From: Halorarum halophilum
GTDB taxonomy: Archaea > Halobacteriota > Halobacteria > Halobacteriales > Haloferacaceae
Direction of reading: 5' to 3'
DNA: 64,000 nt
Assembly: GCF_013401515.1 (NCBI RefSeq)
Contig: NZ_CP058529.1
Span: 1,178,001-1,242,000 of the forward strand
The first letter of the stretch is position 1. Each line of letters begins with the position of its first letter. The notes under the pieces are model-generated. The model saw nothing but the letters and a program-made list of their open reading frames with translations. It was not told the origin of the DNA and made no database searches. Shown piece after piece: positions 3,611 through 60,680 of this stretch. The translations under genes and the position numbers were made by a program.

Positions 3611-3636
3611 GCGCTCCGGCATGGGTTCAGTATTAA

Positions 3637-11224: not shown

Positions 11225-11235
11225 CACTCAGCTAG

Positions 11236-11526: not shown

Positions 11527-11641
11527 ATCATCTCCTCTTGCAATAGGGTGTACCGAGACGACGGAGCAGGGCTACCGTTTAGCTTCGTCGCGTATCACGC
11601 AAGTTGTTACTGCTGTACAACATGACGGAGGAAAACCCTGG

Positions 11642-11758
11642 ATGAGTTCGAACGAATCACATCAGCTACTGCCGAACGAACGGTATGAGAAACCACGGGG
11701 CCGGGATGGTCTACCGTTCGGACTTCGGCCGCTCCTGTCGAACTATACCGGTTATTAG
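11642..11758 (+). CDS. Possible 38-aa small protein (tentative)
   Basis: An ATG at 11642 with a GGAGG purine tract about 11 bases upstream opens a 38-codon frame ending in TAG at 11756-11758. The peptide has no recognisable domain and overlaps the 3' end of the convergent TauE gene by 4 bp. It is listed only because the ribosome-binding-like tract and clean start are present in an otherwise empty gap (11527-11754). It could be chance. Confidence 0.2.
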   Translation: MSSNESHQLLPNERYEKPRGRDGLPFGLRPLLSNYTGY

Positions 11759-12744: not shown

Positions 12745-12746
12745 GG

Positions 12747-12989
12747 TCAGGTGCTCACGAGTATCTCACGGGCGGCCGGGCTAGCAACCCGCGCCAGCGC
12801 CCCGTATCCGACGTACAGCACGAGCGCTTCCGCCAGGACGTAACCGACCGTGGCAGCGGCCCGCCCGGACTCATTGAACACGGGGCCGATCAGCAGGACG
12901 CTCAGCGATAATACCAGTACACCCAACAGTACGTTCGAGGCTGTCGATACCCTCCAGACTGCCGCGAATCCGGCGTCCCTATCACTCAT
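12747..12989 (-). CDS. Small two-helix membrane protein in TauE operon
   Basis: 80 aa from the ATG at 12989 (a frame to 13001 exists but lies further inside the upstream gene). Two hydrophobic segments: SNVLLGVLVLSLSVLLIGPVF and AAATVGYVLAEALVLYVGYG. The start overlaps the end of the FAD oxidoreductase gene by 8 bp, and the stop is 2 bp before the TauE start, so all three are tightly coupled. Small haloarchaeal membrane proteins of this size often sit beside sulfite-exporter-like genes. It may be a subunit of the transporter (inference). No catalytic residues are seen. Confidence 0.7.
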   Translation of the reverse strand: MSDRDAGFAAVWRVSTASNVLLGVLVLSLSVLLIGPVFNESGRAAATVGYVLAEALVLYVGYGALARVASPAAREILVST

Positions 12990-14415
12990 GGCATCTTCCA
13001 CCGTCGGCTCGAACGTTTTCGGACGGCGCGATGTTCTGATTGAGGCTGAACAGATTCGTCGGGTCGTACTCGTCCTTTAGCGCGACCAACCGCTCGTACG
13101 TCGGTCCGAACGTGGACCGCATCATGTCGTCGCCCTCTTCGAGGAATCCCGGGAAGTTCAGGTACACCGAGCCGTCCGAGAACTGGCGCATGTCGTCGAG
13201 ACAGTCCCGCACCCACTCGACGTTGGCGTCGTCGTTCTCCGGGCGTTCCCAGTTCGCTTCGACGCCCAGCAGGAAGGGCGCGTGTCGCCCCGCGAACGCG
13301 CTGTCCTCGACGCCAACCTGGGCGATTGCGCCACCCAACTGCCAGACATCCACTGTCGAGAGCGGTGAAGGTGCCACATCGGACCAGTAGACGATTCGAT
13401 CGATGGCGGACTCCGACAGGCCGTCGAGGTACAGTGACTTCCAGTAGTAGCGCATCCCGTCGGGGTAGTCCTCGTCGAAGAGTTGCTGGAACTCGACGTA
13501 CGGCATCGGTTCACTGAAGTCGGCGATCGGCTCGGCGATCCCTCGCAAGGGTGCCAGTGCGCGTTCGCCGTCCGCGACCGGGCCCGCGTAACAGCCCGCG
13601 ATCGCTATCTTGGATTCGAGCACCGCATCTGTTGGGAAGAGGTCCTCGTCGGGCATCACACCGGACAGAGTGAGCAAGCTTACTTCCGGGGGCGCATCCG
13701 CGACGTAGTCGCGGTAGGCTCCCAGAACCTCGACCATCCGGTCACCCGAATAGAACACGAGGCAGATCGCCACGTCCGGGCCGACCGGGTGGAGGTCGAA
13801 CTCGAAGCCGGTGACCACCCCGAAGTTGCCGCCGCCACCACGGAGTCCCCAGAAGAGGTCCGAGTTCTCGTCCCCGCTGGCGGTCATGTACTCGCCGCCC
13901 GCCGTGACCAGATTTACGGATGCGAGGTTGTCACAGGTCAAGCCGTACTCGCAGCGGAGATGACCGATGCCACCACCGAGCGTCAATCCAGCGACCCCCG
14001 TCTCCGAGACGGCCCCTCCAGGCGTTGCCAGCCCGAAGGCCTGGGTTTCGCGGTCCACATCCGCCCACGTGGCACCGGCCTGGACCCGTGCCGTCCGTGC
14101 GTCAGGGTTTATCCACACGCCCCTCATCTCGGAGAGATCGATCACGAGCCCGTCGTCGCAGACGGCGGTTCCGGCGACGTTGTGGCCACCGCCACGTACC
14201 GCGACCAGGAGATCGTTCTCGCGCGCGAAGTCCACCGCGCTGATGACGTCTCCGACGCCTCGACATCGCGCAATCAGGGCCGGACGCTTGTCGATCATCC
14301 CGTTCCACACCGTGCGCGCGTCGTCGTAGTCGGCGTCGTCGGGACGAATCAGGCCGCCGTGGAATTCTGCTTCGAACCGTTCGATCCGTTCGGCGGGGAT
14401 GACGTGTTGTGCCAT
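12982..14415 (-). CDS. FAD-binding oxidoreductase, BBE-like (VAO/PCMH fold)
   Basis: 477 aa from the ATG at 14415 (MAQHVIPAER). The FAD-binding PCMH domain spans ~45-215: RGGGHNVAG has a His at about residue 78, the usual site of 8-alpha-histidyl FAD; LGGGIGHLRCEYGLTCDN and LRGGGGNFGVVTGFEFDLHP follow. The cysteine used for bicovalent flavin in berberine-bridge enzymes is not at its usual place, so attachment is probably by His only. The C-terminal BBE segment is present (YDPTNLFSLNQNI). The family oxidises alcohols, sugars or alkaloid-like amines with O2. It is the first gene of a three-gene operon with a small membrane protein and TauE, divergent from a DUF1724-like regulator. The substrate is unknown. 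Confidence 0.88.
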   Translation of the reverse strand: MAQHVIPAERIERFEAEFHGGLIRPDDADYDDARTVWNGMIDKRPALIARCRGVGDVISAVDFARENDLLVAVRGGGHNVAGTAVCDDGLVIDLSEMRGVWINPDARTARVQAGATWADVDRETQAFGLATPGGAVSETGVAGLTLGGGIGHLRCEYGLTCDNLASVNLVTAGGEYMTASGDENSDLFWGLRGGGGNFGVVTGFEFDLHPVGPDVAICLVFYSGDRMVEVLGAYRDYVADAPPEVSLLTLSGVMPDEDLFPTDAVLESKIAIAGCYAGPVADGERALAPLRGIAEPIADFSEPMPYVEFQQLFDEDYPDGMRYYWKSLYLDGLSESAIDRIVYWSDVAPSPLSTVDVWQLGGAIAQVGVEDSAFAGRHAPFLLGVEANWERPENDDANVEWVRDCLDDMRQFSDGSVYLNFPGFLEEGDDMMRSTFGPTYERLVALKDEYDPTNLFSLNQNIAPSENVRADGGRCHE

Positions 14416-14503
14416 GCAGAAGTGGACGACAGCGCGGGTATTGGCCTCACCCATCGAGTGGAGTTCGGTGTCGAGAGTACCGTTTCAGGCAGTGAGACGA
14501 ATT

Positions 14504-14515
14504 CCAGAGCGCGTA
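14504..14515 (+). repeat. Recurrent motif CCAGAGCGCGTA, copy 1
   Basis: This 12-mer lies in the divergent gap between the FAD oxidoreductase and the regulator gene. The identical 12-mer recurs at 32863-32874, and its last 11 bases recur at 35731-35741, all in non-coding DNA and each followed by a CGGG- or TCGG-type stretch. It may be an operator or a relic of a mobile-element end. Confidence 0.4.
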
Positions 14516-14564
14516 CGGGATAGAGTTACTATCAGTGACAGCCACTGTCTAGCGAGTGGGCCAC

Positions 14565-15476
14565 ATGATCCCTGACCAAGACGACCGATTGGAGGACGAT
14601 GGCCGCCCGCCACCTGGCTCGCCGGTCTTCGAGGCGATCCTGGAAAACGAGCGAAACCGCCGCTATCTCGGCAAGCGCCTGGACGCCGCGGGCGATCGCA
14701 TCGATACAGAACTCCTCGGAGACATCATCAGACTCGAACCCATCCTCGAAGCGCTACTGGAAGAACCGCTCGATCGCCGGGAGATCGAACAGCGACTCGA
14801 CGTCTCGCGGGCGACGAGCCACCGCTACACGCAGTGGCTCGACGAGCACGAATTCGTTGAGAAAGTCGATGGGCGATTCCAACTGACCTGGCGCGGCGAG
14901 GTCGTCGCAGAGGAGGTGCTCCGGTTCGAAGCGAACATACGGACGGCGCACAGACTGACCCCGCTTCTCGACGTGATCTGTGAGGACCACCGGGAGTTCG
15001 TCGTCGAACCGTTCGTCGACGCGACGATCACCGTCGCCGAACCTGACGATCCCTACAGGCCGGTCGAGCGGTTCATCGCACTCGTCGACGAGTCGGAGAC
15101 GTTTCGGGGGTTCAATACGACGCACATGGCTCCGCTGGTCCTCGGCGAGTTCCACCAGCGGGTGTTCGACGATACCGACACCGAGATCATCTATCTTCCA
15201 CATATCGTGGAGAAACTGTTCGAGACGTACCCGGAGCGCGCCCAGGAATCGATCGACCGCGGGCATCTGACACTCCGGACGCGTGATGAACTGCCGTACG
15301 GCCTCGCTCTCTTCGACGAGCGTGTCGGTATCGGCGGCTACGACGAAACCACCGGTCTCATGCAGGTGTTCGTCGATACGGATTCGCCGATCGCGTGTGA
15401 GTGGGCGGAGCGCGTCTACACATCGGTCAGAGCAGATTCGAACCCGCTCGATGAGAAGACGGATCTGACTCGGTGA
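14565..15476 (+). CDS. HTH transcriptional regulator, DUF1724/FaeA-like family (paralog 2)
   Basis: About 303 aa from the ATG at 14565 (a GTG at 14556 is also in frame). It aligns without gaps over most of its length with the protein at 919-1827: both share GSP-(V/I)-(F/L)-EA(I/V)L, an identical RLDVSRATSHR recognition stretch, DDPYRPVERFI and the FDERVGIGGYD loop. It has an N-terminal winged helix and a C-terminal DUF1724-like sensor domain. It is divergent from the FAD oxidoreductase/TauE operon across a 149-bp gap that holds a CAGTG/CACTG inverted repeat near 14534, a plausible operator. Probable local regulator of that operon. Confidence 0.85.
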   Translation: MIPDQDDRLEDDGRPPPGSPVFEAILENERNRRYLGKRLDAAGDRIDTELLGDIIRLEPILEALLEEPLDRREIEQRLDVSRATSHRYTQWLDEHEFVEKVDGRFQLTWRGEVVAEEVLRFEANIRTAHRLTPLLDVICEDHREFVVEPFVDATITVAEPDDPYRPVERFIALVDESETFRGFNTTHMAPLVLGEFHQRVFDDTDTEIIYLPHIVEKLFETYPERAQESIDRGHLTLRTRDELPYGLALFDERVGIGGYDETTGLMQVFVDTDSPIACEWAERVYTSVRADSNPLDEKTDLTR

Positions 15477-15790
15477 TATGCTCTCGGTGTGGGCGGAAGA
15501 ACTCGTCGTGCATCCCGTTACGCCCCACGACTGCGACACCTGCTACTTTTCCAAGTCTGTGTCCTGTTTACAGGTCGAACGTCAAAACTGCACCTCGCAT
15601 CTACGACATCAGCGGAACTTCGGATCAGTAAGCGATTGGTTTTCTCTGTAGTCACCAGTCTGGATGTACGCGAATTCTGGTGATAGCTACTCGTTCGTTC
15701 GACCATCGAACGAAATCAAATCCGGCAGCCAAAGTCGTTTTATAAGCGACTTACCGCCTCATGTCGGATTTTAATCGTTCGGAAAACGAA
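15477..15790. other. Intergenic at accessory/core boundary
   Basis: 314 bp with no convincing gene. AT content is high. At 15732-15752 an inverted repeat (AAGTCG and CGACTT) encloses a TATA-like TTTTATAA. Just before the tRNA, on its 3' side, a T-rich stretch in the tRNA sense (TTCGTTTTCC) may act as a terminator. No second copy of the tRNA 3' end, as expected at an integration site, was found in the window. Confidence 0.4.
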
Positions 15791-15865
15791 TGGGCGCTGC
15801 AGGATTTGAACCCGCGACAGCCTGGTCCGAAGCCAGGTACTCTGTCCAAGCTGAGCTAAGCGCCC
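15791..15865 (-). tRNA. tRNA-Arg (anticodon TCG)
   Basis: A 75-nt cloverleaf on the minus strand including the discriminator base A. The 7-bp acceptor stem pairs GGGCGCT with AGCGCCC. The D arm is GCTC/GAGT. The anticodon arm is CCTGG-CTTCGGA-CCAGG, giving anticodon TCG, which reads CGA. The T arm is GCGGG-TTCAAAT-CCTGC with one G-U pair. No CCA is encoded. It lies where gene-poor accessory DNA on the left meets dense core genes on the right, with its 3' end facing the accessory side. Confidence 0.95.
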
Positions 15866-31095: not shown

Positions 31096-32778
<1,683 letters not shown>

Positions 32779-32862
32779 GTGCTGGGTTCGTCGTCAGCGG
32801 AGAGGAGCATCCGACCTCGTTGAAACCCTCGCTGAGGATAGATTTCGGGAGACGTGCTGCAT

Positions 32863-32874
32863 CCAGAGCGCGTA
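32863..32874 (+). repeat. Recurrent motif CCAGAGCGCGTA, copy 2
   Basis: Identical 12-mer to 14504-14515, with near-identical flanks (AT before, then TCGGG). It lies 85 bp past the mutase stop, at the left rim of the island, in non-coding DNA. Confidence 0.4.
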
Positions 32875-32919
32875 TCGGGCACGAGGGCGGACTGGTGTAC
32901 CGGATGGTGAATGTATCGC

Positions 32920-33234
32920 TCAGTAATGGAGACTGAGGTTCCGACCGCAGTTAGCCTCTTCCCAGGCCTCGATAAAGTTCGGTCCTTCGCTCACGACGTT
33001 GCTGTCCCTGTCCCATCTGACCACATCATCTTCCTCTAATTCTAACAGGGATTTGTGGTTCAATCTGAGGCGGAGTCTCGCCACGGATTCGTTGGTAGAG
33101 AATGGGTCCTCACGTCGGTCGTATTTGCGCTGTTTGCTATCGACCATTGGCTGTATACGGGGGCGAACACCGATGTACTCCTTGATTTTTACAGAGTGTG
33201 GACGTTTGAGTAACCGGGTAACAATGGAGTCCAT
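32920..33234 (-). CDS. Probable DUF7344-like winged-helix protein, diverged
   Basis: 104 aa from the ATG at 33234 (MDSIVTRLLK). The C-terminal half still reads as a haloarchaeal DUF7344 recognition helix and wing: ESVARLRLRLNHKSLLELEE, then VVRWDRDSNVVSEGPNFIEA. The N-terminal half lacks the usual first two helices, so the gene may be truncated or recombined. Codon use is less GC-biased than in the flanking core. It is next to another small winged-helix gene on the same strand, at the left end of the island. Confidence 0.5.
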   Translation of the reverse strand: MDSIVTRLLKRPHSVKIKEYIGVRPRIQPMVDSKQRKYDRREDPFSTNESVARLRLRLNHKSLLELEEDDVVRWDRDSNVVSEGPNFIEAWEEANCGRNLSLHY

Positions 33235-33363
33235 GCTCACTAAGCAAGTTCTTCCGAGCGGCTGATTCTCTGTGGACGGTTGGCGAATGGTACGGGCTCC
33301 GCCACTGTTCGAAACGAGGACACGTGAGCCACGTACTGCCCCCACCGCTGGAGCGGAAGCTCC

Positions 33364-33810
33364 TCACACGCGGAGCGTATCATCGCCGTCGTCGGTCGCG
33401 GAGAGCTGATTCTGTGGCGCGTATTCGGGGAGGCAGACCACCTTCTCACGGCCGACCGGCACGCGCACGACCTGGCCATCGTCTTCCATCTCCTGGAGGA
33501 GCCGACTGATCGTCGAACTCGACAAATTCGCGTAGGTGGCGAACTCCTTCTGTGGAAGCGTACCCCCATTGGCCTCCACTAGTTGGCAGAACAATTCGTC
33601 GTGAGAAACGCCGAGTTTCAGGACGAAGTCCTTTCGACTGCACAGTTCACTTGGGTCGTAATCGAAGAGTCCAGTTCCTGGCTCAGCATCGGAGTTCTCA
33701 GTCGGCGTTTCCTCGCTCTCCTCCCTGTCTACGAAGCGCACTATTGACGTAGCCTCGAATGAAGGGGCCTCTGCGAGCAGTTTCCGCAGCTTCTCCAGTT
33801 CGAATACCAA
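33364..33810 (-). CDS. DUF7343-like winged-helix regulator
   Basis: 148 aa. The N-terminal ~65 residues are charged and variable. The C-terminal ~75 form a winged helix: VSHDELFCQLVEANGGTLPQ, EFATYANLSSSTISRLLQEM and a wing VVRVPVGREKVVCLP. This fits MarR/IclR-type haloarchaeal DUF7343 domains. The target is unknown. Upstream is a very AT-rich stretch likely to hold its promoter. It is an island gene. Confidence 0.72.
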   Translation of the reverse strand: MVFELEKLRKLLAEAPSFEATSIVRFVDREESEETPTENSDAEPGTGLFDYDPSELCSRKDFVLKLGVSHDELFCQLVEANGGTLPQKEFATYANLSSSTISRLLQEMEDDGQVVRVPVGREKVVCLPEYAPQNQLSATDDGDDTLRV

Positions 33811-34019
33811 CGTATGTTCCCATGCTCAGACACCTCCAATGAAGTCATGCCCTAATCATTTAGTTTCATGATATAAAATTGTCCAATAAATACGACCCTT
33901 CCCCTGATTGATAGACTTGAGATGGGTTCGGAATCGAATCATAGAAATGGTTGTTATTCTAAGTCTTTGACATCGTTCTAGGCAACAGGGGAGGTTCCAT
34001 GTACGGCCAGCAGGTTAGC
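33811..34019. promoter_or_regulatory. AT-rich intergenic, promoter of the DUF7343-like gene
   Basis: 209 bp, the most AT-rich part of the window (for example the stretch around 33855-33890 with tataaaattgtcc). It lies just upstream of the leftward winged-helix gene and contrasts sharply with the flanking core DNA. No gene is seen. Confidence 0.45.
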
Positions 34020-34244
34020 TGTGATGAGACGCCTGAAGCCGCCCTCATCCCATTACGATGGGAGTACCGTCCGTGAATCGACCACCCGATCGATAACCCG
34101 GAGAGCCGCATCACTGTCGAGTTCCACGACGTCGGAGAGGGCACGGAGGTCGTGTTCACGCACGAGAACCTCGATCCCGGGATGGTCGAGGATACTTCAC
34201 AGGGCTGGAGCTCGATGCTTGGACGGCTGGAAACTGTGGCCTGA
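34020..34244 (+). pseudogene. AHSA1/SRPBCC domain fragment with an internal stop
   Basis: In one frame the DNA reads LRWEYRP, a TGA at 34074-34076, then DHPIDNPESRITVEFHDVGE, TEVVFTHENLDPGMVEDTS and GWSSMLGRLETVA before the TGA at 34242-34244. This is the C-terminal half of an activator-of-Hsp90-like (AHSA1) SRPBCC domain, as found in haloarchaea, interrupted by a stop and lacking its N-terminal half. It is a decayed gene. Confidence 0.6.
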
Positions 34245-34263
34245 AGGCTACTTCCCTAATTCC

Positions 34264-34716
34264 ATGAAGTACACGATGGAAACAGGGATCGACGCGCCCA
34301 TCGAGGAGGTTGCTGCACTCGTCGGCGAAACCACCAACAGGATCGGATGGATGGAGGGAATCGTGAGTCAAGAGCACGTGAGCGGTTCGCCCGGAATGCC
34401 GGGTGCGAAGGACCAGCTCGTGTTCGAGATGAACGGCAATACCATCGAGTTGACGGCGACGGTGACCGAGCGAGACCTGTCTGACGAGTTCCGACAGACG
34501 ATGGAAGCGCCACAGGTGCTGATGGCGATCTCGACACGATTGACTCCCGTGACTGCCGAGCGGACGAAGTACGTCTGGGACTAAGAGTACGAGTTCACGG
34601 GCACGCTGAAGAGGATCGTTGGAGTGGCGATGCGGAGCGAGTTCGAGAACCAGACGGAAACGCACGCGGAGAACTTCTAGGGGTTTGCGGAGGAAGAAAT
34701 TTCGGAAAGCGAGTAG
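34264..34716 (+). pseudogene. SRPBCC (polyketide-cyclase-like) gene broken by two stops
   Basis: From an ATG at 34264 the frame reads as an SRPBCC lipid-binding-fold protein (METGIDAPIEEVAALVGETT, then AKDQLVFEMNGNTIELTATV, then STRLTPVTAERTKYVWD). It is cut by a TAA at 34582. The same frame continues in family style (EYEFTGTLKRIVGVAM, FENQTETHAENF) to a TAG at 34678, then to a TAG at 34714. Two point stops in an otherwise intact frame make recent inactivation likely. The 107-aa product up to the first stop would lack the last strand and helix. Confidence 0.7.
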
Positions 34717-34870
34717 TCGGCGGTACACCACGTAGCTGATTCGATTGTTTCCCTCCGTGTAGAACGCGCTCCCTATGCTGAATCCACCCTCGGTATTCAG
34801 TAAGCAATGTTTGGCAGATCCCGGAGGGATCGGTAGGCGCTCCGATAACTGCTTACCTGTAATTATCTTC

Positions 34871-35022
34871 ACATCAGTCAGCTGTATAGGGGTCACTTCC
34901 GAGAATTACCTATTCTCGGCAACTCTTCGTCGAGGATCGACTGTCACTTACAGCGCTCACACTCAAGGAAGGAGTTGTTCAATCGGCTAAGTCTGAATCA
35001 ACCGCTACGTAGACCTGCAAAC
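34871..35022 (+). repeat. Dispersed ~152-bp repeat, copy B
   Basis: It aligns with copies A and C over the full length. It holds a perfect 8-bp inverted repeat, CCGAGAAT/ATTCTCGG with a 5-nt loop (34899-34919), and a second hairpin GTTG-TTCA against TGAA-T-CAAC (34974-35002). It ends 11 bp before the 3' end of the leftward membrane-protein gene. Confidence 0.78.
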
Positions 35023-35033
35023 CGACTACCCTG

Positions 35034-35468
35034 TTATGTGCTGGGGGTGGATACTGAGACGTTTCGTCCTCGAAGCCAGTACTCCCCACCGGCGAGAAGT
35101 CCATACGCGACCAGATAGAACGGCGCCAAGAAGAGTACTAATGCAAACGCAGGCACGTCACCCCCTTCACTCCCGAGAACGGGGATGTGAACCAAGACGT
35201 GCCAGAACAGCAGAATGAACGCCATGAGTATGGATGGGCCTCGAATCTGGAAACGTACCCAGAGCAGAACGGGGACGCCAATCGTTCCGAATGCGAAGAG
35301 TGCAGCCAACCCAAACGAGGCCCAGTATGAACCCGTGATTTGGATGTTGGGTGATTGAGCACTATACCCGAAGATAATACTGGCGTAGCTGAGGCTGGCG
35401 AGACCACCACTCAGGATAGCTCGTTTCCAGTCTCCCCGCGATGACAACCACTCATGGAGGGACAGCAT
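35034..35468 (-). CDS. Hypothetical membrane protein flanked by direct repeats
   Basis: 144 aa from the ATG at 35468 (MLSLHEWLSS); the frame to 35576 runs into repeat copy C and is not used. It has about four membrane helices: GLASLSYASIIFGYSA, WASFGLAALFAFGTIGVPVL, SILMAFILLFWHVLVHIPVL and FALVLFLAPFYLVAYGLLAG. It ends with a short polar tail. No family was recognised. It is bracketed by repeat copies B and C in the same orientation, so the gene-plus-repeat unit may be a cassette. Confidence 0.65.
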   Translation of the reverse strand: MLSLHEWLSSRGDWKRAILSGGLASLSYASIIFGYSAQSPNIQITGSYWASFGLAALFAFGTIGVPVLLWVRFQIRGPSILMAFILLFWHVLVHIPVLGSEGGDVPAFALVLFLAPFYLVAYGLLAGGEYWLRGRNVSVSTPST

Positions 35469-35520
35469 GTACGATGCATCATCTGTGTGGGTGATAAGTC
35501 TGCACGCTGTACGGAGCGGT

Positions 35521-35674
35521 ACATCAGTCAGCCGTACAGGGGGTCGCTTCCGAGAATAACTTATAGCTGGCAACACTCCTTCGCGAGTCCGACTGGTATC
35601 TAACAGCGGTCACACTCAATAGCGGAACTGTTCAATTGGCTCTGTTTGAATCAACTGTTTCGTAGAACTGCGAA
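35521..35674 (+). repeat. Dispersed ~152-bp repeat, copy C
   Basis: It starts with ACATCAGTCAG, as copy B does, and ends at TAGAACTGCGAAC. The second hairpin is kept (TTCAA at 35631-35635 with TTGAA at 35646-35650), but the first hairpin is degraded, so this is the most worn copy. It begins 52 bp upstream of the start of the membrane-protein gene. Confidence 0.75.
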
Positions 35675-36000
35675 CTGATCCGTCGAATTTCGATCAGGTA
35701 TTGGTGATGCTCGTCGGGTCACGCTGAATACAGAGCGCGTAGTCGGCAGATGCCACTGCTCAGGGACAGATCGCAGGTAGCCGCTCGTGGACCCAGCTGC
35801 GATTCTACCCGAAGACAACACTTCCTCTATGAGGAGAAGGCGACCGTTGCTGGGACAGAGGGATGCTGACGAGCGAGTGATGTCGCGTTTCCTTGACTGT
35901 ACTGCGTTTATCGGAATTTAGCAGACACCTCGGCGAATCTACTACCGAGCGTCGCGTGAGAGGACATAATTGTTTTCACGATCCTTAGCGTACCCCTGTT
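35675..36000. other. Intergenic with recurrent motif copy 3
   Basis: 326 bp without a gene. CAGAGCGCGTA at 35731-35741, preceded by CTGAATA, repeats the motif at 14504 and 32863. The last 70 bp before the regulator gene are AT-richer and probably hold its promoter. Confidence 0.4.
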
Positions 36001-36825
36001 ATGAGATTTGTTAACATGGAACACCGTAATATGGGATCGGCGATCGTCGACATAGCGTATCTCGCGCGGTCCGAACATCGCGTCCCGACGCTCGTCGCAC
36101 TGACGGAACGACCCCGTAGCCGCTCCGAACTCTGCGAGTTGGCCGGGGTTTCGTCTTCCACGATGCGCCGGACGCTGGACGAATTCGACGACCGGCTCTG
36201 GATCCGCAAAGACGGGTATCAGTACGTGGCGACACGACTGGGAGAGGCTATCGCATCCGGGATGGGGGATTTGATCGAACGAGTCGAAACCGAGCGAAAG
36301 TTGCGTCATGTCTGGCACTGGCTCCCCGACGCGATCAGCGAGTTTCCGTTCGAGACGTGGTCGGAACTGACCGTAACCGTCGCCGAACCCGATGCTCCGT
36401 ATCGTCCGGTGGGTCGATTCGAGTCGCTTCTCCGGGAGACGGCCACCTTACGGTTTCTCCGCCCTGAAGTCGCGCTGATGGATCCGTGTTTCGACGTGCT
36501 CCACCAACTGATCGAGGAGGGTCTAGACACGACGTTGATCGACCGACCGGAGTGCCACACGTACTTTCTTTCGACGTACCCGAATCGCAGCTCGGAGATG
36601 ATGCAACGGGATAACTTCACGATTCTAGAGCACGACGACCTCTCTCCGTACGGAATTGGTCTGCTCGACGAACGCGTCACGATCAGTTGTTACGATCAGG
36701 ACAGTGGAACGGTACGTGCATTGGTCGATACCGACGCGCCGGCGGTCCGCGAGTGGGCGAAGTCCGTCTACGAAACTTACAGGTCTGGTGCACGCCCCGT
36801 TGAACCGCAAAAGAACATCGGGTAA
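36001..36825 (+). CDS. HTH transcriptional regulator, DUF1724/FaeA-like family (distant paralog)
   Basis: 274 aa from the ATG at 36001; ATGs at 36016 and 36031 are alternatives. The winged helix spans ~30-90 (TLVALTERPRSRSELCELAG, then SSSTMRRTLDEFDDRLWI). The C-terminal sensor domain shares DAPYRPVGRFESLL and PYGIGLLDERVTISCYD with the proteins at 919 and 14565 but is otherwise diverged. It lies upstream of the OsmC/methyltransferase pair on the same strand and is a candidate regulator of it. Confidence 0.8.
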   Translation: MRFVNMEHRNMGSAIVDIAYLARSEHRVPTLVALTERPRSRSELCELAGVSSSTMRRTLDEFDDRLWIRKDGYQYVATRLGEAIASGMGDLIERVETERKLRHVWHWLPDAISEFPFETWSELTVTVAEPDAPYRPVGRFESLLRETATLRFLRPEVALMDPCFDVLHQLIEEGLDTTLIDRPECHTYFLSTYPNRSSEMMQRDNFTILEHDDLSPYGIGLLDERVTISCYDQDSGTVRALVDTDAPAVREWAKSVYETYRSGARPVEPQKNIG

Positions 36826-37073
36826 GGTTCCCTGCGACCTGATTTGGCCTGGTACATTCCACTCACGTTTCGCCCGATCTCGAGACGTAGTGACTCACGT
36901 GACGTGGTCGGACTCGACGAGCGCCGGATTGCAGTTGGTGGTTCTTTTGCAGTGGATGCGTGAACGGCAGGAGCTGCCGAACCTCCACGAAATAGCTACA
37001 ATACACTCATCTTCGTAACTGCTTTTGCCGGTTGGAGACACAAACGTAGCTCCAACTGGGGAGAGACACAACA

Positions 37074-37679
37074 ATGACTGACGAACGACAACTGTCGCAC
37101 GGTATCGACCTCGAAACACTCGAAGGGTTCGCCGCACACGCTGCGGAGAATCCCGAAGCCGTCCACTTTGGCCTCGGGGCATCCGCGACCTACGAGGGGA
37201 CGGCCGCGCACAGCCTGGCGAAAGTCGATAGCTACGAGCTCGGAGGCGAGACGATCACTCGTGAAACACGCGAGTACACGATTCCCTACGGCGCCTGGAA
37301 GGAAGTACTGGACGCCGGCGGGTGGGTCGGCGGGACCGACCGGCTCGAACCGATAGAAGCGGCGTTGTCGGCGCTGGCCGCTTGTATCAACGTCGGCATC
37401 ACCATCAACGCCGCCGCGAACGGCGTGGATATCGACCACCTCCAGACGCGCGTCCGGACTGATTTCGATCCAGCGGTTCTCTTCAGTCTCGAGGAACTCC
37501 GAGAGGCCGACTCGGTCTTCGAGAACCTCTCCGCCGAGGTCGAGATCGACGGCGAGGATCTCGATCGGGACCTGATCGACGAGTGGGCGCGGCGGGCACC
37601 CGTCTACACGTTCGTCTCCCTCGCTCAGGACGTCGATATGACCATCAACGCGCCCGCCGAGGTGGCGGGCGACGACTGA
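37074..37679 (+). CDS. OsmC family protein
   Basis: 201 aa. OsmC-like fold: an N-terminal strand region (VHFGLGASATYEGTAAHSLA), the central helix with a conserved Cys in LSALAACINVGITINAA, and a C-terminal strand pair ending at SLAQDVDMTINAP. OsmC/Ohr proteins reduce organic hydroperoxides through a Cys pair; only one obvious redox Cys is seen here, so peroxidase activity is uncertain. It is 13 bp upstream of the ArsM-like methyltransferase gene, so the two form an operon. Confidence 0.85.
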   Translation: MTDERQLSHGIDLETLEGFAAHAAENPEAVHFGLGASATYEGTAAHSLAKVDSYELGGETITRETREYTIPYGAWKEVLDAGGWVGGTDRLEPIEAALSALAACINVGITINAAANGVDIDHLQTRVRTDFDPAVLFSLEELREADSVFENLSAEVEIDGEDLDRDLIDEWARRAPVYTFVSLAQDVDMTINAPAEVAGDD

Positions 37680-37692
37680 CTGGTGACCACCG

Positions 37693-38463
37693 ATGAGTGA
37701 ATCACTCGACACGGACAAACTCGAACGTGAGGTCAAGTCGATGTACCGGGACGTCGCTGAGTCCGCTGACGCGGAGTTCCACTTCGAGACGGGCCGCGAC
37801 CTCGCCGACCGCCTCGGCTACGACCCCGACGATCTCGAGTACGTTCCCGACCCGGCGATCGACTCGTTTGCGGGTGTCGGCTACTACTTCGACATGGTCG
37901 AGCTCGAGCCAGGCGAGGCAGTGCTCGACCTCGGTAGCGGGTCGGGAATGGACGCCTTCGTCGCTGGGGTGCATGTCACAGAGACCGGCACAGTGACAGG
38001 TATCGATATGACCGACGAGCAGGTCGAGAAGGCTCGCACCCTAGCAGCGGCCAACGGCTTCCACAACGTCGAGTTCCGCCGAGGGTACATCGAGAACCTT
38101 CCGTTCGAGGACGGATCGTTCGACGCGGTGATCTCGAACGGCGTTATCAACCTCTCGGCGGAGAAGGATCGTGTCTTCGAAGAGGTAAGCCGCGTGCTCA
38201 AGCCCGACGGTCGGTTAGCACTCTCGGACATCATCAGCGAGCAGCGACTGTCTGAGAGCATTAAAACCAACGCAGACCTCTGGGCGGCCTGTATCGGCGG
38301 CGCCGAACAGGTCGACGACTACACGGCGATGATCGAAACACCTGGCTTCAAACTCATCGAAGTCCGGGACAACTCGCAGTACGAGTTCACCTCACAACAG
38401 GCGCAGGGCGCGTGCCAGAAGTACGGCGTGAAAAGCATCTCGCTCGTCGCTCGAAAGCGCTAA
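37693..38463 (+). CDS. ArsM-like SAM methyltransferase (atypical)
   Basis: 256 aa. The class I methyltransferase core is AVLDLGSGSGMDAFVAGVHV (motif I), VTGIDMTDEQVEKARTLAAA, and FDAVISNGVINLSAEKDRVF. It looks like an arsenite methyltransferase: Cys200 in WAACIGGA and Cys241 in GACQKYG match the two As(III)-binding cysteines. The third conserved Cys, normally in a GCGNP stretch before motif I, is absent (here AGVGYYFDM). The substrate may be arsenite or another soft (thio/seleno) acceptor. It is the second gene after osmC. Confidence 0.75.
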   Translation: MSESLDTDKLEREVKSMYRDVAESADAEFHFETGRDLADRLGYDPDDLEYVPDPAIDSFAGVGYYFDMVELEPGEAVLDLGSGSGMDAFVAGVHVTETGTVTGIDMTDEQVEKARTLAAANGFHNVEFRRGYIENLPFEDGSFDAVISNGVINLSAEKDRVFEEVSRVLKPDGRLALSDIISEQRLSESIKTNADLWAACIGGAEQVDDYTAMIETPGFKLIEVRDNSQYEFTSQQAQGACQKYGVKSISLVARKR

Positions 38464-38871
38464 TCTCTATTTTAATCCAATAGATCCACTTCGTATGTAA
38501 TGCCGCCACCATGTCGCATAGATTCTCTACATTCGGCAACCCATTCTGGCCAGGGTGAGTAGTATTCACCAGTTCTCGTTCGGCTCAGCGAGGGGTTCGA
38601 CAAAGCTGAGTCTCCTGCGTCTGTAGCAATCCGGCTGACCGACCCCGGAGGTGCCCCTCGTTGACGTGACGCCGGTTCGGACGAAAGGAGACTGACCGCG
38701 ACTGCTAATCCAATGAAACGCCACGGACCTCCCTTACCTCGGAGGACGCTCCTCGCTCATCCCTCGCGCACCTTGGCCGCACACGAGGCGCGGCCGCCGC
38801 GGGCCACCGCACAACCCGCAGCCGAATCGCATCCCACCCCAGTTTAGACCCCTCCGCGCCACGGTACGACC
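38464..38871. other. Intergenic, right rim of the island
   Basis: 408 bp without a gene. The left ~230 bp are AT-rich like the island. From ~38,700 the base composition returns to the GC-rich core type (for example gaggcgcggccgccgcggg). This is the likely right boundary of inserted or rearranged DNA. I found no matching direct repeat at the left rim by eye. Confidence 0.45.
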
Positions 38872-39255
38872 ATGCACCTCGACCACGTCGGCATCGCAAC
38901 CGACGACGCCGCGGCCCTCGCAGAACTGTTCACCGACCTCCTCGGCGCGAGCGTCGCCCACGAGGAGGAGTTCGACGGGATGGGCGTCGTCTTCCTCGAA
39001 CTGGGCGACTCGTACCTCGAACTGCTCGAACCGCTAGACGATGGGACCATCGCGCGGTACGTCGAGGAGAACGGACCGGGTATCCACCACCTCGCGTTCG
39101 CGGCCGAGGACGTCGAGTCCGCGCTGGGTCGGGCGCGCGCGCTCGACATCGAACTCGTCGACGACGAGCCCCGCCCGGGCGCCTGGGGTCACGACGTCGC
39201 GTTCCTCCACCCGGCGTCGACCGGCGGCGTGCTCGTCGAGTTCGTCGAGCACTGA
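38872..39255 (+). CDS. mce: Methylmalonyl-CoA epimerase
   Basis: 127 aa vicinal-oxygen-chelate fold enzyme that interconverts (S)- and (R)-methylmalonyl-CoA for the mutase. The two beta-alpha-beta-beta-beta modules and metal ligands are seen: His4 in LDHVGIATDD, a Glu in FLELGDSYLELLEP, the His pair in GPGIHHLAFAAEDV, and Glu in VLVEFVEH. The length is right. It is normally beside the mutase gene; here an island lies between. Confidence 0.93.
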   Translation: MHLDHVGIATDDAAALAELFTDLLGASVAHEEEFDGMGVVFLELGDSYLELLEPLDDGTIARYVEENGPGIHHLAFAAEDVESALGRARALDIELVDDEPRPGAWGHDVAFLHPASTGGVLVEFVEH

Positions 39256-54579: not shown

Positions 54580-54757
54580 CCGGGCTCGAACGCGGTCCGC
54601 CGGACGCCCCGGACGCGTGGAGTATCACGGACGGCGAGGCGACGACCGGTGCCATCCCGGGCGCCGCGAGAACGAGCAGCGAGGGTCCACCTCGTCCGGC
54701 AGGCAGGATCGGGTAGCGGAACCGACCGAAACGTGACCGGCGCGAGGACCGCGGTCC

Positions 54758-55609
54758 TCAGCCGAACGCGCCCAGGCTCGACTGCAACTCGCGCTCCGAC
54801 CCGCCATCCTCGAGTTCGTACCCGACCAGGTCGCGCATGTCGACCGCGTAGGTGCTCCCGGCGTTCTCCAGCACGAGCACGCGCCCCTTCGTCCCGACCA
54901 CGGTCCCGGTCGCGAGCGTCTCGGCCACTGGCCGCTCCGCGACCTCGAAGCCGTAGTCGAAGGTGAACGTCTCGACCGGGTCGAACTCGGCGAGGATCGC
55001 CTCCCACGCGGCCTCGTCGACGCCATCCGCGAGGCCGTCGACCTTCGTCGGAACCCGGACCCGGTCGGTGAACTCCTCGGCCAGTCCGGCCTCGATCTCA
55101 CGGGCGATGCGGCCGTCCTCCACGGTCCTGAGATGGGCGGCCCGGTCGGCGCCCTGCTCGCGCAGGCGGGTCTCCAGGCGCCACTCCTTCGTCACGCCGA
55201 CCTTGAACACGTCCGGCGCGAACGCCGCGAGGTACACCGCGTGGTCGTCGAAACAGTCCATCTCGTCCTTCAGGCAGGTTCCCGTACAGCGGGCGCACAC
55301 CCACGTCGAACGGTGGTCGCGACAGTACGGCGCCGTCTCACGATCGCAGGCGACGTGCCCGCCCTCGTGGACCGTCCCGGCACAGTGGCGCTCGCCGAGC
55401 GACCACGAGAGGTCGGTCCCGGGGTCGAGCGCCACGCGGTCGACAGACCGCCCAGCGCGAGCGACGTCGCCCGACGACGAGACGTCTTCGAGGTCGCCGG
55501 GAGGTCCGCCGGGGTCGCGGTCGCTCACGAACAGCGCGCCCGCCGGCGTCTCGTACCCCACGACCTGCACGACCCCCGGTAGTCGGCGGGCGGCAATATG
55601 CGTGTTCAT
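54758..55609 (-). CDS. DUF2797 family zinc-binding protein
   Basis: 283 aa from the ATG at 55609 (MNTHIAARRLPG). Middle: two zinc-knuckle-like sets, RHCAGTVHEGGHVACDRETA and PYCRDHRSTWVCARCTGTCL. A GIY-YIG-like region follows: YLAAFAPDVFKVGVTKEWRL, then RLREQGADRAAHLRTVEDGR. DUF2797 proteins occur in bacteria and archaea; this fold suggests a nuclease but activity is unproven. It is divergent from the subtilase gene. Confidence 0.85.
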   Translation of the reverse strand: MNTHIAARRLPGVVQVVGYETPAGALFVSDRDPGGPPGDLEDVSSSGDVARAGRSVDRVALDPGTDLSWSLGERHCAGTVHEGGHVACDRETAPYCRDHRSTWVCARCTGTCLKDEMDCFDDHAVYLAAFAPDVFKVGVTKEWRLETRLREQGADRAAHLRTVEDGRIAREIEAGLAEEFTDRVRVPTKVDGLADGVDEAAWEAILAEFDPVETFTFDYGFEVAERPVAETLATGTVVGTKGRVLVLENAGSTYAVDMRDLVGYELEDGGSERELQSSLGAFG

Positions 55610-55690
55610 CCGCCGTTCCCGGTCGTGACTGTACCCCGTTCCATCGTACATCGATTCGGTCAGTGACTACCGAATCAAAGTTCGCCTTGG

Positions 55691-55714
55691 TTAATTAAAT
55701 TAAACTGTATAAAG
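55691..55714 (+). promoter_or_regulatory. Probable promoter of the subtilase gene
   Basis: A strongly AT-rich stretch (ttaattaaattaaa, then tataaag at 55708-55714) stands out in the GC-rich core. The TATA-like box is ~35 bp before the ATG at 55749, giving a transcript with a very short leader. Confidence 0.55.
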
Positions 55715-55748
55715 ATTAAAATCAATCTGGTTGCCAGTAACTTGCGCC

Positions 55749-56891
55749 ATGGTGTTCAACCACACGGGCACGACGCGGCGTGACGTACTCAGAGCAACCG
55801 GGGGAGCGGTCGCCGGATTGGGCCTGGCCGGGGTCGCATCGGCCGAACCAGCCACGGTCGAGGTCAACGTCGGCTACAGCGCCGAGAGCGGACGGCGCGC
55901 CGCGAAGGCCGAGGCGAGCGCGGTCGTCCGCGAGTTCGCCTTCGACGCGCTGACGCTCCGGGTGAACGAGAACGCGATCCAGGGGCTCGCGAACCGGCCG
56001 GACGTCCGCTACGTCGAGCACAACGGGACGATGCACGCGCTCGCCCAGCAGCTCACCTGGGGCGTCGACCGCGTCGATGCCGACGTCGCCACCGCGAACG
56101 GCTCGACCGGCGCCGGCGCCGACGTCGCCATCCTCGACACCGGGATCGACTCGGACCACCCCGACCTGATCGACAACCTCGGTTCGGGCCGGGCGTTCGC
56201 CAGCGCCCGCGGCCCGTACGCGGAGAGCTGGGACGACGACAACGACCACGGCACCCACTGTGCCGGCATCGCCGACGCCGACGATAACGGGGAGGGCGTC
56301 CGCGGCGTCTCGACGGAGGCGACGCTCCACGCGGTGAAGGTGCTCGACAAGCGCGGTTCGGGCTCGTTCTCCGACATCGCGGCCGGCGTCGAGTACGTCG
56401 CCGACCAGGGCTGGGACGTCGGGTCGATGAGCCTCGGCGGCTCCTCCGGCTCGCAGACGCTGAAGGACGCCTGCGCCTACGCCGTCGACAACGGCGTGTT
56501 CCTCGTCGCCGCGGCGGGCAACAGCGGTCCGTGTTCGGACTGCGTCGGCTACCCGGCGGCCTACGAGGAGTGTCTCGCGGTCTCCTCGTCGGCGTCGGAC
56601 GACTCGCTCTCCGGGTTCTCCTCGACCGGCCCCGAGGTGGAGCTCGTCGCGCCCGGGACGGACGTTTACTCGACGGTCCCCGGCGGCTACGACACCTTCT
56701 CCGGCACGTCGATGGCGACGCCGCACGTCGCCGGCGCGGCGGGCCAGCTCATGGCGGACGGCTACACGAACGCCGAGGCGCGGAGTCGACTCACGAGCAC
56801 CGCGGAGGACATCGGGCTCTCCTCGAACGAACAGGGTGCCGGACTCCTCGACGTCGCCGCGGCGCTCGGCTACGATTCGAGCGACGACTGA
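55749..56891 (+). CDS. Secreted subtilisin-like serine protease (halolysin type)
   Basis: 380 aa from the ATG at 55749. Tat signal with twin Arg at 10-11 (TTRRDVLRATGG) and cleavage near SAEPA (31-35), so it is exported folded. Propeptide I9-like region ~36-98. The catalytic triad is Asp130 (ILDTGID), His167 (NDHGTHCAGI) and Ser321 (GTSMATPHVAG), with oxyanion Asn258 (AAAGNSG). A Cys set (C262, C265, C275) may form a disulfide. The chain stops soon after the catalytic domain, lacking the C-terminal extension of classical halolysins. A BsuPI-type inhibitor gene is 365 bp downstream. Confidence 0.93.
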   Translation: MVFNHTGTTRRDVLRATGGAVAGLGLAGVASAEPATVEVNVGYSAESGRRAAKAEASAVVREFAFDALTLRVNENAIQGLANRPDVRYVEHNGTMHALAQQLTWGVDRVDADVATANGSTGAGADVAILDTGIDSDHPDLIDNLGSGRAFASARGPYAESWDDDNDHGTHCAGIADADDNGEGVRGVSTEATLHAVKVLDKRGSGSFSDIAAGVEYVADQGWDVGSMSLGGSSGSQTLKDACAYAVDNGVFLVAAAGNSGPCSDCVGYPAAYEECLAVSSSASDDSLSGFSSTGPEVELVAPGTDVYSTVPGGYDTFSGTSMATPHVAGAAGQLMADGYTNAEARSRLTSTAEDIGLSSNEQGAGLLDVAAALGYDSSDD

Positions 56892-56930
56892 GGTCACCTC
56901 CCCGCACGCGATACTCGCCCTCTTCGTCGA

Positions 56931-57107
56931 TCAGTTCCCGTCCCTGACCCCGAGGTCCGCCGACCCGCAGTCGGGACAGCGCATCCGGATCATCCGGTTG
57001 CCGGACCGCTCGAACGACGTGTCACAGTCCCTGCACAGGTATCCGACGGCGTCCGGATCGGTCGCGTCGTCCGTGAGCGTGTCGGCGATCGTGCTTACCA
57101 GACCCAT
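56931..57107 (-). CDS. 58-aa zinc-ribbon protein
   Basis: 58 aa from the ATG at 57107. Two CxxC pairs: GYLCRDCDTSFERSG and MRCPDCGSADLG, making one FmdB-like zinc ribbon; the N-terminus is a short helix (MGLVSTIADTLTDDATD). Codon use is fully haloarchaeal. It is convergent with the protease gene (39-bp gap). The function is unknown; small zinc ribbons often act in regulation or protein contacts. Confidence 0.7.
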   Translation of the reverse strand: MGLVSTIADTLTDDATDPDAVGYLCRDCDTSFERSGNRMIRMRCPDCGSADLGVRDGN

Positions 57108-57255
57108 GGGGCGCGACTATACAGCCTGCCCCTTGTGAAAGTTACCCTACCTGGCCGTGATCGCACTCTAGTTGGTCGGAACACCAACACTACTCGGTCG
57201 ACACGACCCCGCCGACGAGGCAGGGCTTTAGTTCGGGCCGGGCGTGGGGGACGGC

Positions 57256-57660
57256 ATGCTTGAGGCGACGCTGACCGTGGCGCCGACGCCCGAGGGGTTC
57301 GATCTCACGCTCGCCGTGGAGAACGTCGGGAGCGACCGCGTCACGCTCGCGTTCCGCGACGGACAGCGGGCGGAGTTCGTCGCCGATCGAACCGGGTCGG
57401 AGAATGGAGGAACCGGGGCGGGAACCGAGGGGAACGGACGGGGGGCCGGTGACGAGGAGGCTGTCTGGCACTGGAGCGAGGGCCGGATGTTCACGATGGC
57501 GCTCGGCGCCGAGGAACTCGGGCCAGGCGAGTCCGTGACGGAGACGGCGACGTGGTCCGACCCGGCGCCGGGCGAGTACGCGGTCCGGGCGTGGCTCACA
57601 ACCGAGGACGACGGAGTCAGGAGGGAGTCGGAGGCCGAGACAGTCGTCGTCGTCGGTTAG
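57256..57660 (+). CDS. BsuPI-type intracellular proteinase inhibitor domain protein
   Basis: 134 aa from the ATG at 57256 (MLEATLTVAPTPEG); a GTG at 57244 is possible. Beta-sandwich pattern of BsuPI-PI: FDLTLAVENVGSDRVTLAF, FRDGQRAEFVADRTG, WHWSEGRMFTMALGAEEL and TWSDPAPGEYAVRAWLTTED. A Gly/Glu-rich insert interrupts the middle. There is no signal peptide, so it is probably cytosolic. It lies near the subtilase gene, which may suggest protection from unexported protease (inference). Confidence 0.72.
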   Translation: MLEATLTVAPTPEGFDLTLAVENVGSDRVTLAFRDGQRAEFVADRTGSENGGTGAGTEGNGRGAGDEEAVWHWSEGRMFTMALGAEELGPGESVTETATWSDPAPGEYAVRAWLTTEDDGVRRESEAETVVVVG

Positions 57661-57682
57661 AGTTGGCGTCGACGCCCGAGCG

Positions 57683-58612
57683 TCATACCAGTTCGTCAAT
57701 GAGATCACGTGTTGCGCGTCGCACCGCGTCGTCGCTGGAGTTCGGCGGCTCCCAGCTAAGCGCGGAGAGCTTCTCGACGGAGAGGCGCATTTTCGGCACG
57801 TCGCCGGTCCACCCGCGGTCGCCGCCCGTGAACTCGTAGTCGGGGTCGAGGTCGAGTTCGTCGGCGACGATGTCGGCGATGCGGATCACGGAGGTCGTCG
57901 TCCGCGAGCCCAGGTTGTACGTGTTCAGGTCGCGGTCGCCGTGCTCGACGACGTGGGTGATGGCGTCCACGCAGTCCTCGACGTGGAGGTAGGACTTCTC
58001 CTGCCGGCCGTCGCCGAGGATCTCGAGCGTGTCGGGGTCGGCCTGGAGCTTCTGGATGAAGTCCGGGATCACGTTGCCCCGCTGGTACGGGCCGACGATG
58101 TTAGCGAACCGGAAGACCCAGGACTGGACGCCGTAGCTCTTCGCGTACGTCGAGATGAGCGCCTCGTCGGCGAGCTTCGAGGAGCCGTAGATGCTGATGG
58201 GTTCGAGGGGGGCGTAGTCCTCCGGGGTGGGACGCGGCGCCTCGCCGTACACGGTCGAGGACGAGGTGAAGGCGAACCTGTCGACGCCGACCTCCGCCAT
58301 CCGTTCGAGGACGTTGTACGTCATCTCGGTGTTCTCCTCGAACAGCGTCCGATCGTCCTCGAAGTTCGTGTCAGTGTACGCGGCGAGGTGGAAGACGACG
58401 TCCAGGTCGCCCGTCACGGCGTCGGCGACATCGTCGGGGTCGGTCACGTCCGCCTCGACGAACTCGACGCCGTCGGGCACGCGGTCGCGGTCGCCCTTGG
58501 AGAGGTCGTCCGCGACGCGCACGTCGTTGTCGGCCGCCAGTTCGGCCGCGAGGTGCGAGCCGATGAGGCCCGCGCCGCCCGTGACGAGGACAGACTTCCC
58601 GGAGAGGTTCAT
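57683..58612 (-). CDS. NAD-dependent epimerase/dehydratase (nucleotide-sugar, GalE-like)
   Basis: 309 aa extended SDR. NAD loop VTGGAGLIGSHLAAELA, catalytic Ser/Tyr/Lys in FTSSSTVYGE and SIYGSSKLADEA, downstream FANIVGPYQRGNVIPDFI binding the nucleotide sugar. Substrate (UDP-glucose/galactose or other NDP-sugar) not fixed. It would feed surface glycan synthesis. It is convergent with the BsuPI-type gene. Confidence 0.88.
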   Translation of the reverse strand: MNLSGKSVLVTGGAGLIGSHLAAELAADNDVRVADDLSKGDRDRVPDGVEFVEADVTDPDDVADAVTGDLDVVFHLAAYTDTNFEDDRTLFEENTEMTYNVLERMAEVGVDRFAFTSSSTVYGEAPRPTPEDYAPLEPISIYGSSKLADEALISTYAKSYGVQSWVFRFANIVGPYQRGNVIPDFIQKLQADPDTLEILGDGRQEKSYLHVEDCVDAITHVVEHGDRDLNTYNLGSRTTTSVIRIADIVADELDLDPDYEFTGGDRGWTGDVPKMRLSVEKLSALSWEPPNSSDDAVRRATRDLIDELV

Positions 58613-58694
58613 GTCCTCGAGAGCGGCCGAGACCGGAAAGTGTCTTCCGGTCGCCGGTCGCGTCCGCGGCGGTTCGTCCCCCGTCGGGCGACGG

Positions 58695-59597
58695 TCACCA
58701 TCGGACGCCCGTCAGGTCCTCGCTGAGGTCCCAGAGCGTCGAGCCGCGGTCGCCGTCCCGGGCGACGTCGGCCGGGTCGACGCGTGCGCAGTCGACGTAG
58801 TAGCCGCCGGCGGCGTCCGCGGCTTCCGGCGCCGCCGCGAGGTACACCGACGTGGCGGCGGCCTCCGCAGCGTCGTCGACGACGTCGGGCGTCAGCCGGG
58901 ACGGGAGGCGGTCCAGCCCCCCGACCGCGACCCGGACAGGGACCGACGCCTCGCGCCACAGCCCGCTCCCGGGGACGAACCCGGGGTGACACGACGCGAC
59001 CGCGGCGCCGTCGAGCCGGTCCGCCAGTTCCCGGGCGAAGAGGACGTTCGCGAGCTTCGAGCGGGCGTAGGCGCCCAGCCCGTCGTACTCGTCGACCGAG
59101 CGCACGTCAAACGTCCCGTCAGCGCGACCGTGGACCGCTGAGGCGACGACCACCACGCGAGCGTCCGGCGCGAGGACCTCGCGCAGGTCGAACGAGAGTC
59201 GGAACGGGCCGAGGTGGTTCACGACGAACGTCCGCTCGGCCCGCTCGGCGCCTGCGTCGACCAGCGCACCCTCGTCGAAGTGCGCCCCGGCGTTGTGGAC
59301 GAGCAGGTCCAGCGAGTCGACGTCCTCCCGCACCGCAGTCGCGAGCGCGTCGACGGCGTCCGGATCGGCGAAGTCGGCGGGGAGGAACGTCGCGTCGACG
59401 CCGGCGTCGCGGGCCTCGCGCACCACCGCGCTGCCGGCCGCACGGTCGCGTCCGTGGACGAGCACGTCGGCGCCGAGGCGGGCGAGCGCGAGGGCGGTCT
59501 CGGCGCCGACGCCGGAGGTCGCGCCGGTGACGAGCGCGGTCCTGCCTGCCAGATCGACGTCGGCGACGCCCGCGAGGTCCTCCGGACGGGAAGGCAT
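58695..59597 (-). CDS. Short-chain dehydrogenase/reductase
   Basis: 300 aa classical-type SDR. Cofactor loop TALVTGATSGVGAETALALA followed by VLVHGRDRAAG (Arg suggesting NADP). Active-site: NNAG-equivalent LLVHNAGAHF, Ser in VVVASAVHG, Tyr-x3-Lys in GAYARSKLANVLF. The substrate-binding C-terminal part is longer than minimal, like WWOX/retinol-dehydrogenase relatives. Substrate unknown. It is on the same strand as the NDP-sugar epimerase downstream (82-bp gap). Confidence 0.87.
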   Translation of the reverse strand: MPSRPEDLAGVADVDLAGRTALVTGATSGVGAETALALARLGADVLVHGRDRAAGSAVVREARDAGVDATFLPADFADPDAVDALATAVREDVDSLDLLVHNAGAHFDEGALVDAGAERAERTFVVNHLGPFRLSFDLREVLAPDARVVVVASAVHGRADGTFDVRSVDEYDGLGAYARSKLANVLFARELADRLDGAAVASCHPGFVPGSGLWREASVPVRVAVGGLDRLPSRLTPDVVDDAAEAAATSVYLAAAPEAADAAGGYYVDCARVDPADVARDGDRGSTLWDLSEDLTGVRW

Positions 59598-59723
59598 AGT
59601 TCGCGTACGACGTCATGAACCAAAGCGCCACCGGCCGTATCCGCCCCCTAACCGTGGGCGAAGGGGGCGAACTCGCGCCCGCGAAGCGAAACGCCCTCAC
59701 CGACGGGGCCCGCCTCGACACCC

Positions 59724-60296: not shown

Positions 60297-60297
60297 C

Positions 60298-60546: not shown

Positions 60547-60680
60547 CGCCCTGGTAGAAGCACGTTGTGTTCGTGAGTGCAGCGAACGACGGTGCGAGGA
60601 CGTCGACCCGTCGCCGTCGCTAGCCATAATCCCTGTCGATCGAAGGAGAACCGAGAATAGCCGTCCCTAGGGACGAACGA

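Follow-up and report, generated by a model that had tools for sequence, protein, structure and literature searches.

In Halorarum halophilum, the genes for the methylmalonyl-CoA mutase large subunit (mcmA1) and methylmalonyl-CoA epimerase (mce) are separated by an island that is probably a decayed 5.8-kb cargo element resembling a mobile insertion cassette (MIC), i.e. passenger genes without a transposase, bounded by terminal repeats that belong to a haloarchaeal insertion sequence (IS) of the IS5 family. The island is a modest case, and the interesting part is the family of cargo cassettes. There is a reasonable case that haloarchaea share a widespread system, in which an IS5-type transposase moves itself with one or a few variable cargo genes as well as many transposase-less cassettes that have the same ends, and which builds such islands. 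Positions are those of the 64,000-nucleotide stretch of DNA that was analyzed (the window), in which the locus is arranged as follows.

31096-32778, + strand: mcmA1, methylmalonyl-CoA mutase large subunit, left neighbor (TIGR00641, 768 bits; PF01642)
32805-32812, no strand: left copy of a putative target duplication, GAGCATCC, 6/8 bases equal to the right copy
32813-32891, + strand: right end of IS5 type, oriented toward mcmA1, with GACCTCGTTGAAACCCT as its terminal repeat (E 2.3e-15 for the profile match at 32812-32891)
32920-33345, - strand: remnant of a DUF7344 helix-turn-helix (HTH) gene (weak PF24035 match, C-terminal half only; fragmentary plasmid relatives)
33364-33810, - strand: DUF7343 winged-helix (HTH) regulator (PF24034, E 2.6e-13; paralogs on contig C3 and the chromosome)
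34108-34716, + strand: decayed SRPBCC-type sequence, a fragment and then a pseudogene from 34264 (weak PF10604 match)
34776-35025, + strand: dispersed repeat R1, copy a (15 matches in its own genome, 6 in G040, 0 in G016)
35034-35468, - strand: gene for a 144-aa membrane protein (plasmid relatives are annotated genes of the same 435-bp length)
35504-35758, + strand: copy b of R1, whose last part, 35716-35758, is another fragment of the IS right end (profile E 3.8e-5)
36001-36825, + strand: FilR1/HVO_A0261-type transcription regulator (PF25213 and PF08350)
37074-37679, + strand: OsmC-family protein (PF02566)
37693-38463, + strand: ArsM-like SAM methyltransferase (PF13847; PRK11873)
38591-38607, - strand: IS5-type left-end terminal repeat AGCTTTGTCGAACCCCT, facing mce (3 mismatches)
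38608-38615, no strand: right copy of the putative target duplication, GAGTCTCC, 6/8 against the left copy
38872-39255, + strand: mce, methylmalonyl-CoA epimerase, right neighbor (TIGR03081, 142 bits, above the cut-off of 115)

The identities that a sequence-only reading of the window had given to the flanking genes, mcmA1 ending at 32778 and mce starting at 38872, agree with the TIGR00641 and TIGR03081 matches. The same reading held that the two genes are commonly adjacent in haloarchaea. When their spacing was compared across the 132 genomes of the family in which both could be placed, this was true of close relatives and too general otherwise, since only 66 gaps are <1 kb (28 of them <200 bp). 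Nine gaps span 3-8 kb, and in 17 genomes the genes are distant, in opposite orientation or on different contigs. The gap, 6,093 bp in Halorarum halophilum, is 136 bp in the congener Halobaculum salinum (G040) and 38-85 bp in eight of nine genomes of the nearest genus. This synteny comparison had been proposed with the proviso that relatives all carrying the same intervening genes would point to an old arrangement; the island genes are not found at this site in relatives, and in the closest of them mcmA1 and mce are adjacent. In G016, of the same genus, mce lies 58 kb from mcmA1 on its upstream side, and the DNA ahead of it matches window 54757-63161 in inverted order (L026 and L027), so this junction is a rearrangement breakpoint too, an event separate from the island.

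As assessed by alignment, homology to G040 ends with mcmA1 (32768) and restarts at 38871, and the flanks are collinear up to the spacer with an identity (∼82%) that is ordinary for the core. The alignment finds no remaining homology between the G040 and Halorarum halophilum spacers, i.e. the empty site is not alignable. The GC content of 32813-38607 is 0.568 compared with 0.697 and 0.700 in the flanks, and none of 607 flank windows of island size falls below 0.680, which bears out the 6.1 kb of lower-GC DNA and the sharp compositional change at both rims noted earlier. Within the island, GC is 0.547 in the left part and 0.596 in the cassette part. As far as can be judged from three genomes of the genus (three species, with one strain of Halorarum halophilum), the insertion is specific to the Halorarum halophilum lineage. 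Elsewhere in the window, a second stretch of reduced GC (0.61, positions 1-15790) has tRNA-Arg(tcg), at 15791-15865, near its end and is possibly a tRNA-linked integrated element.

The rims of the island bear IS ends. The left-rim motif (32813-32829, + strand) sits in an 80-bp match to an IS right end, obtained with a profile built without the window and without the G016 IS. The same profile recovers the real IS right end of G016 (E 4.5e-13), where a broken transposase gene is followed by the same IS end. An intact IS in G040 has a left end that agrees with the right-rim motif at 20 of 23 positions. Both terminal repeats are degenerate, with 2 and 3 mismatches in 17 bases, and both face outward. 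Matches with ≤3 mismatches occur in the 64-kb window at the two rims only, compared with an average of 0.25 in shuffled sequences, and such a site was present in 38 of 20,000 shuffles of the right spacer. A search for direct repeats at the rims, as the sequence-only reading had suggested, yielded the octamers GAGCATCC and GAGTCTCC, which match at 6/8 positions. The IS makes an 8-bp target duplication, and the chance of a match of at least 6/8 is 0.004-0.010.

The left-rim repeat recurs in intergenic DNA of many haloarchaea. Its start, GGCYYTGTTGAAAYCCT, is the terminal repeat of an IS5-family element, and the element with rim-type ends encodes a DDE_Tnp_1 transposase annotated as IS5. An IS6-family origin of the rim motif was rejected because PF13610 matches are only weak and decayed. 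The motif is absent from the G040 stretch containing the spacer and from 15 other loci with wide mcm-mce gaps, and was accordingly discarded as a general feature of such gaps (0/15 loci). The inserted unit is best placed at 32813-38607 (5,795 bp), the remaining 34 and 264 bp of the gap being spacer, the latter with a genus-wide repeat. Just upstream of mce, at 38744-38812, lies the 60-bp core of a longer intergenic repeat of the GGCCGC-NCACGAGGNGC-GGCC type; each of the three genus genomes has tens of copies of this core, but in G040 and G016 none sits just upstream of mce.

The decayed genes, repeats, regulators and OsmC and methyltransferase genes previously reported in the island are all present. 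The SRPBCC pseudogene has in-frame stops at 34582 and 34678 upon reading of the sequence, and a Pfam search assigns the 144-aa membrane protein to no family. The methyltransferase reaches 232 bits against PRK11873, below the curated cut-off of 263, and was therefore not accepted as ArsM proper, being related only. The repeat R1 (∼250 bp; copies at 34776-35025, 35504-35742 and 3630-3803) often consists of two halves with unrelated genes between them, and possibly represents a more ancient remnant of this kind of IS. It was rejected as the promoter of one membrane-gene family because its copies flank unrelated genes. An Rfam match to a structured RNA is absent within the island, a phage origin was set aside on a single weak unrelated match, and the tail 3' of the methyltransferase, with no plasmid match, was dropped as a coding remnant.

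Several types of mobile element do not fit the island. No transposase match was found in it, and an autonomous IS5 element with cargo was rejected because a transposase gene is lacking between the ends. A composite transposon does not apply since the rims bear IS ends only, not two complete IS copies. Pfam and tRNA searches found neither integrase nor tRNA in the island, as the sequence-only reading had stated, and the nearest tRNA in the window is that at 15791-15865; an integrase/tRNA genomic island, for which neither integrase nor tRNA attachment site was found, was likewise rejected. On the other hand, the island displays two features of a MIC, namely outward inverted terminal repeats of a known IS at its two ends and passenger genes without a transposase. 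As for a target duplication of the length made by the IS, its octamers agree at 6/8 positions, compared with 8/8 in many other members.

The regulator-OsmC-methyltransferase cassette occurs in many haloarchaea, often on plasmids. In phylogenetic trees, the regulator and OsmC protein are sisters of a plasmid copy in Natrinema salinisoli (support 0.966 and 0.912), which belongs to another family than Halorarum halophilum. For the methyltransferase, the sister is a deleted remnant from G040 (0.997), and the full copy of G040 falls in another clade. We read this tree pattern as horizontal transfer. The G040 remnant (L024:6363-7152) is an in-frame-looking regulator-methyltransferase fusion, with ∼1.8 kb deleted between the two parts, beside a truncated IS5 transposase. 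It lies at an unrelated locus, and beyond its methyltransferase part a tail homologous to that of the island extends as far as the same terminal repeat, with an alignment score of 13.5 compared with 4.0 for the best of 1,000 shuffles. Because this tail reaches the same terminal repeat, the right-hand end of the island belongs with the cassette.

Elements with these ends and no transposase are found elsewhere. A census of the terminal repeat in the three genus genomes gave 18, 15 and 25 matches, compared with 1, 1 and 1 for a reversed control. Inverted pairs with a perfect 8-bp duplication number three, and another two pairs match at 7/8. None of these five elements contains a transposase, and they include one of 1,310 bp in Halorarum halophilum and one of 5,125 bp in G040. 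Cargo consists of HTH_10 regulators, an aldo/keto reductase and an MgtE-like gene, and the 5,125-bp element carries, among others, genes of the DUF7344, BAT/HTH_10 and tyrosine-recombinase types. Besides the island, two elements have DUF7344 in their cargo. In 40 genomes of the order, a census of the exact repeat gave matches in 19 (control, 0) and 21 regions with inverted pairs, of which 11 have perfect duplications and one 7/8. Seven of these 12 duplication-flanked elements have no transposase and hold one or few short ORFs. Over all surveys, duplications of 7/8 or 8/8 flank 12 elements with a transposase and 12 without. Considering that even 6/8 or better arises by chance with a probability of about 0.004-0.010, 7/8 and 8/8 duplications in such number are not accidental. 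The smallest transposase-less cassettes (L207, L216, L217, L218, L220 and L223) measure 341-605 bp, with perfect 8-bp duplications and longest ORFs of 51-88 aa, several of them membrane-protein-like.

Transposase-bearing members complete this picture. An intact transposase gene with these ends is present on contig C3 of Halorarum halophilum, and relatives were found in 144 plasmid records. Twelve plasmid copies that were sampled resemble one another in left end and transposase, and the six compared base by base diverge a short way past the transposase stop codon. For nine copies the far end could be located, and in seven of these a perfect 8-bp direct repeat surrounds the whole stretch. The order is left end, transposase, cargo and right end, over 1,266-3,325 bp, and among the cargo are a TrkA-type gene together with a formate/nitrite transporter, a TauE/SafE exporter, HTH genes and a pyridoxal-phosphate-dependent, threonine-synthase-like gene. 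In the duplication-flanked copies, the cargo has moved with the IS. Similar transposases with unrelated cargo inside perfect 8-bp duplications show that such elements exist in haloarchaeal plasmids and chromosomes. In Halorarum halophilum, a 19-kb region (L166, C1:1464000-1483000) is dense in IS right-end fragments, including back-to-back inverted pairs of inner halves, and is probably another graveyard of these elements.

The reading of the island as a single decayed element rests on its outward complementary ends (32813 and 38607), cargo, lack of a transposase and 6/8 octamers. Against a single insertion stand the imperfect duplication, degenerate ends, missing transposase and absence of an alignable empty site. 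The main rival, owing to the further right-end fragment in the interior and the R1 repeats, is accretion, by which independent insertions of IS5-type elements, cassettes and R1-bearing DNA, together with deletions, built the island, and the rim ends come from different elements. The fragment at 35716-35758 and the two R1 copies suggest that more than one event may have occurred, and accretion would also suit the different GC of the left and cassette parts and the different relatives of the island genes. However, rim octamers alike at 6/8 positions are unexpected for the ends of different insertions, and cassette and right-hand end are associated in G040 too; we therefore regard accretion as possible but doubtful. 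Homologous recombination with a plasmid or foreign chromosome, via flanking genes or dispersed repeats, could draw on the plasmid-borne relatives of the cargo and on the repeats present, but is very unlikely considering that the flanks keep their collinearity and ∼82% identity with G040 right up to the spacer with no replaced flanking genes seen, that the left-rim repeat is accounted for as an IS end, and that the rim motif is missing from the G040 spacer stretch. An old arrangement, in which ancestral intervening genes were lost in relatives, could appeal to the other wide gaps in the family but has next to nothing in its favor once the adjacency of mcmA1 and mce in G040 and eight of nine nearest-genus genomes, the lack of an island counterpart in the gaps of close relatives, the 0/15 result for the rim motif and the low GC are taken into account. 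The sequence-only reading had proposed entry either by homologous replacement or by a now-lost mobile element. The IS5-type rim repeats and partly decayed 8-bp duplication favor the latter, and the former is not needed, given that both sides keep their collinearity with G040 and that IS ends make up the rim sequences.

How a single decayed element would have arisen can be outlined from what is directly seen, i.e. the interrupted synteny, IS ends on either rim, perfect duplications in similar elements elsewhere and plasmid relatives of the cargo. An IS right end beside mcmA1 and an IS left end beside mce would bound the island, and an IS5-type transposase, acting in trans as we infer or encoded by an internal copy later lost, would have moved the element. 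Insertion into the short mcmA1-mce spacer would have duplicated about 8 bp. The cargo is plasmid-type accessory DNA that comprises the FilR1-type regulator-OsmC-methyltransferase cassette as well as a membrane gene and other regulators, and the ends, the duplication and several genes would have decayed later. With degenerate rim repeats and an imperfect duplication, arrival as one 5.8-kb unit is probable, not proven.

A search of openly accessible papers for the repeat sequence found nothing, and an earlier description of these particular elements is possible. Elements of this kind offer a simple, testable mechanism by which haloarchaea could exchange single regulators, transporters, small membrane proteins and operons, and gives a concrete pattern by which islands without an integrase can be recognized.

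IS elements with passenger genes are termed transporter IS (tIS). The twelve transposase-bearing copies, with variable genes inside terminal repeats and target duplications, are like tIS, whereas the island itself lacks a transposase. Haloarchaeal MITEs, known from Haloquadratum (PMC3119063), likewise have target duplications and the terminal repeats of a known IS but no transposase; their length is at most about 520 bp and nearly all of them lack coding sequence, whereas kilobases of coding cargo are present here. In TIME-COMP, as outlined in PMC13367494, genes are similarly mobilized between transposase-less ends; those structures are bacterial, derive from Tn3-family miniature elements and comprise two complete ones, unlike the one left and one right IS5-type end seen here. 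Passenger-gene transposons were stated to be undetected in archaea (PMC6563490), and one passenger gene on a transposon was later noted for Halorubrum (PMC10544981). The system closest in design is MIC231/IS231 of Bacillus cereus, as cited in PMC2266710, in which transposase-less mobile insertion cassettes carry cargo between IS terminal repeats and related IS copies have both transposase and cargo. It differs in belonging to the IS4 family, whereas the elements described here are IS5-type, archaeal and flanked by 8-bp duplications, with a putative mobilization in trans, and in cargo site. In the transposase-bearing copies described here the cargo follows the transposase and precedes the right end, whereas the extra DNA reported in PMC2266710 lies between left end and transposase gene. 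If our reading is correct, the haloarchaeal cassettes would correspond, in archaea and in another IS family, to the MIC and passenger-gene elements of bacteria.
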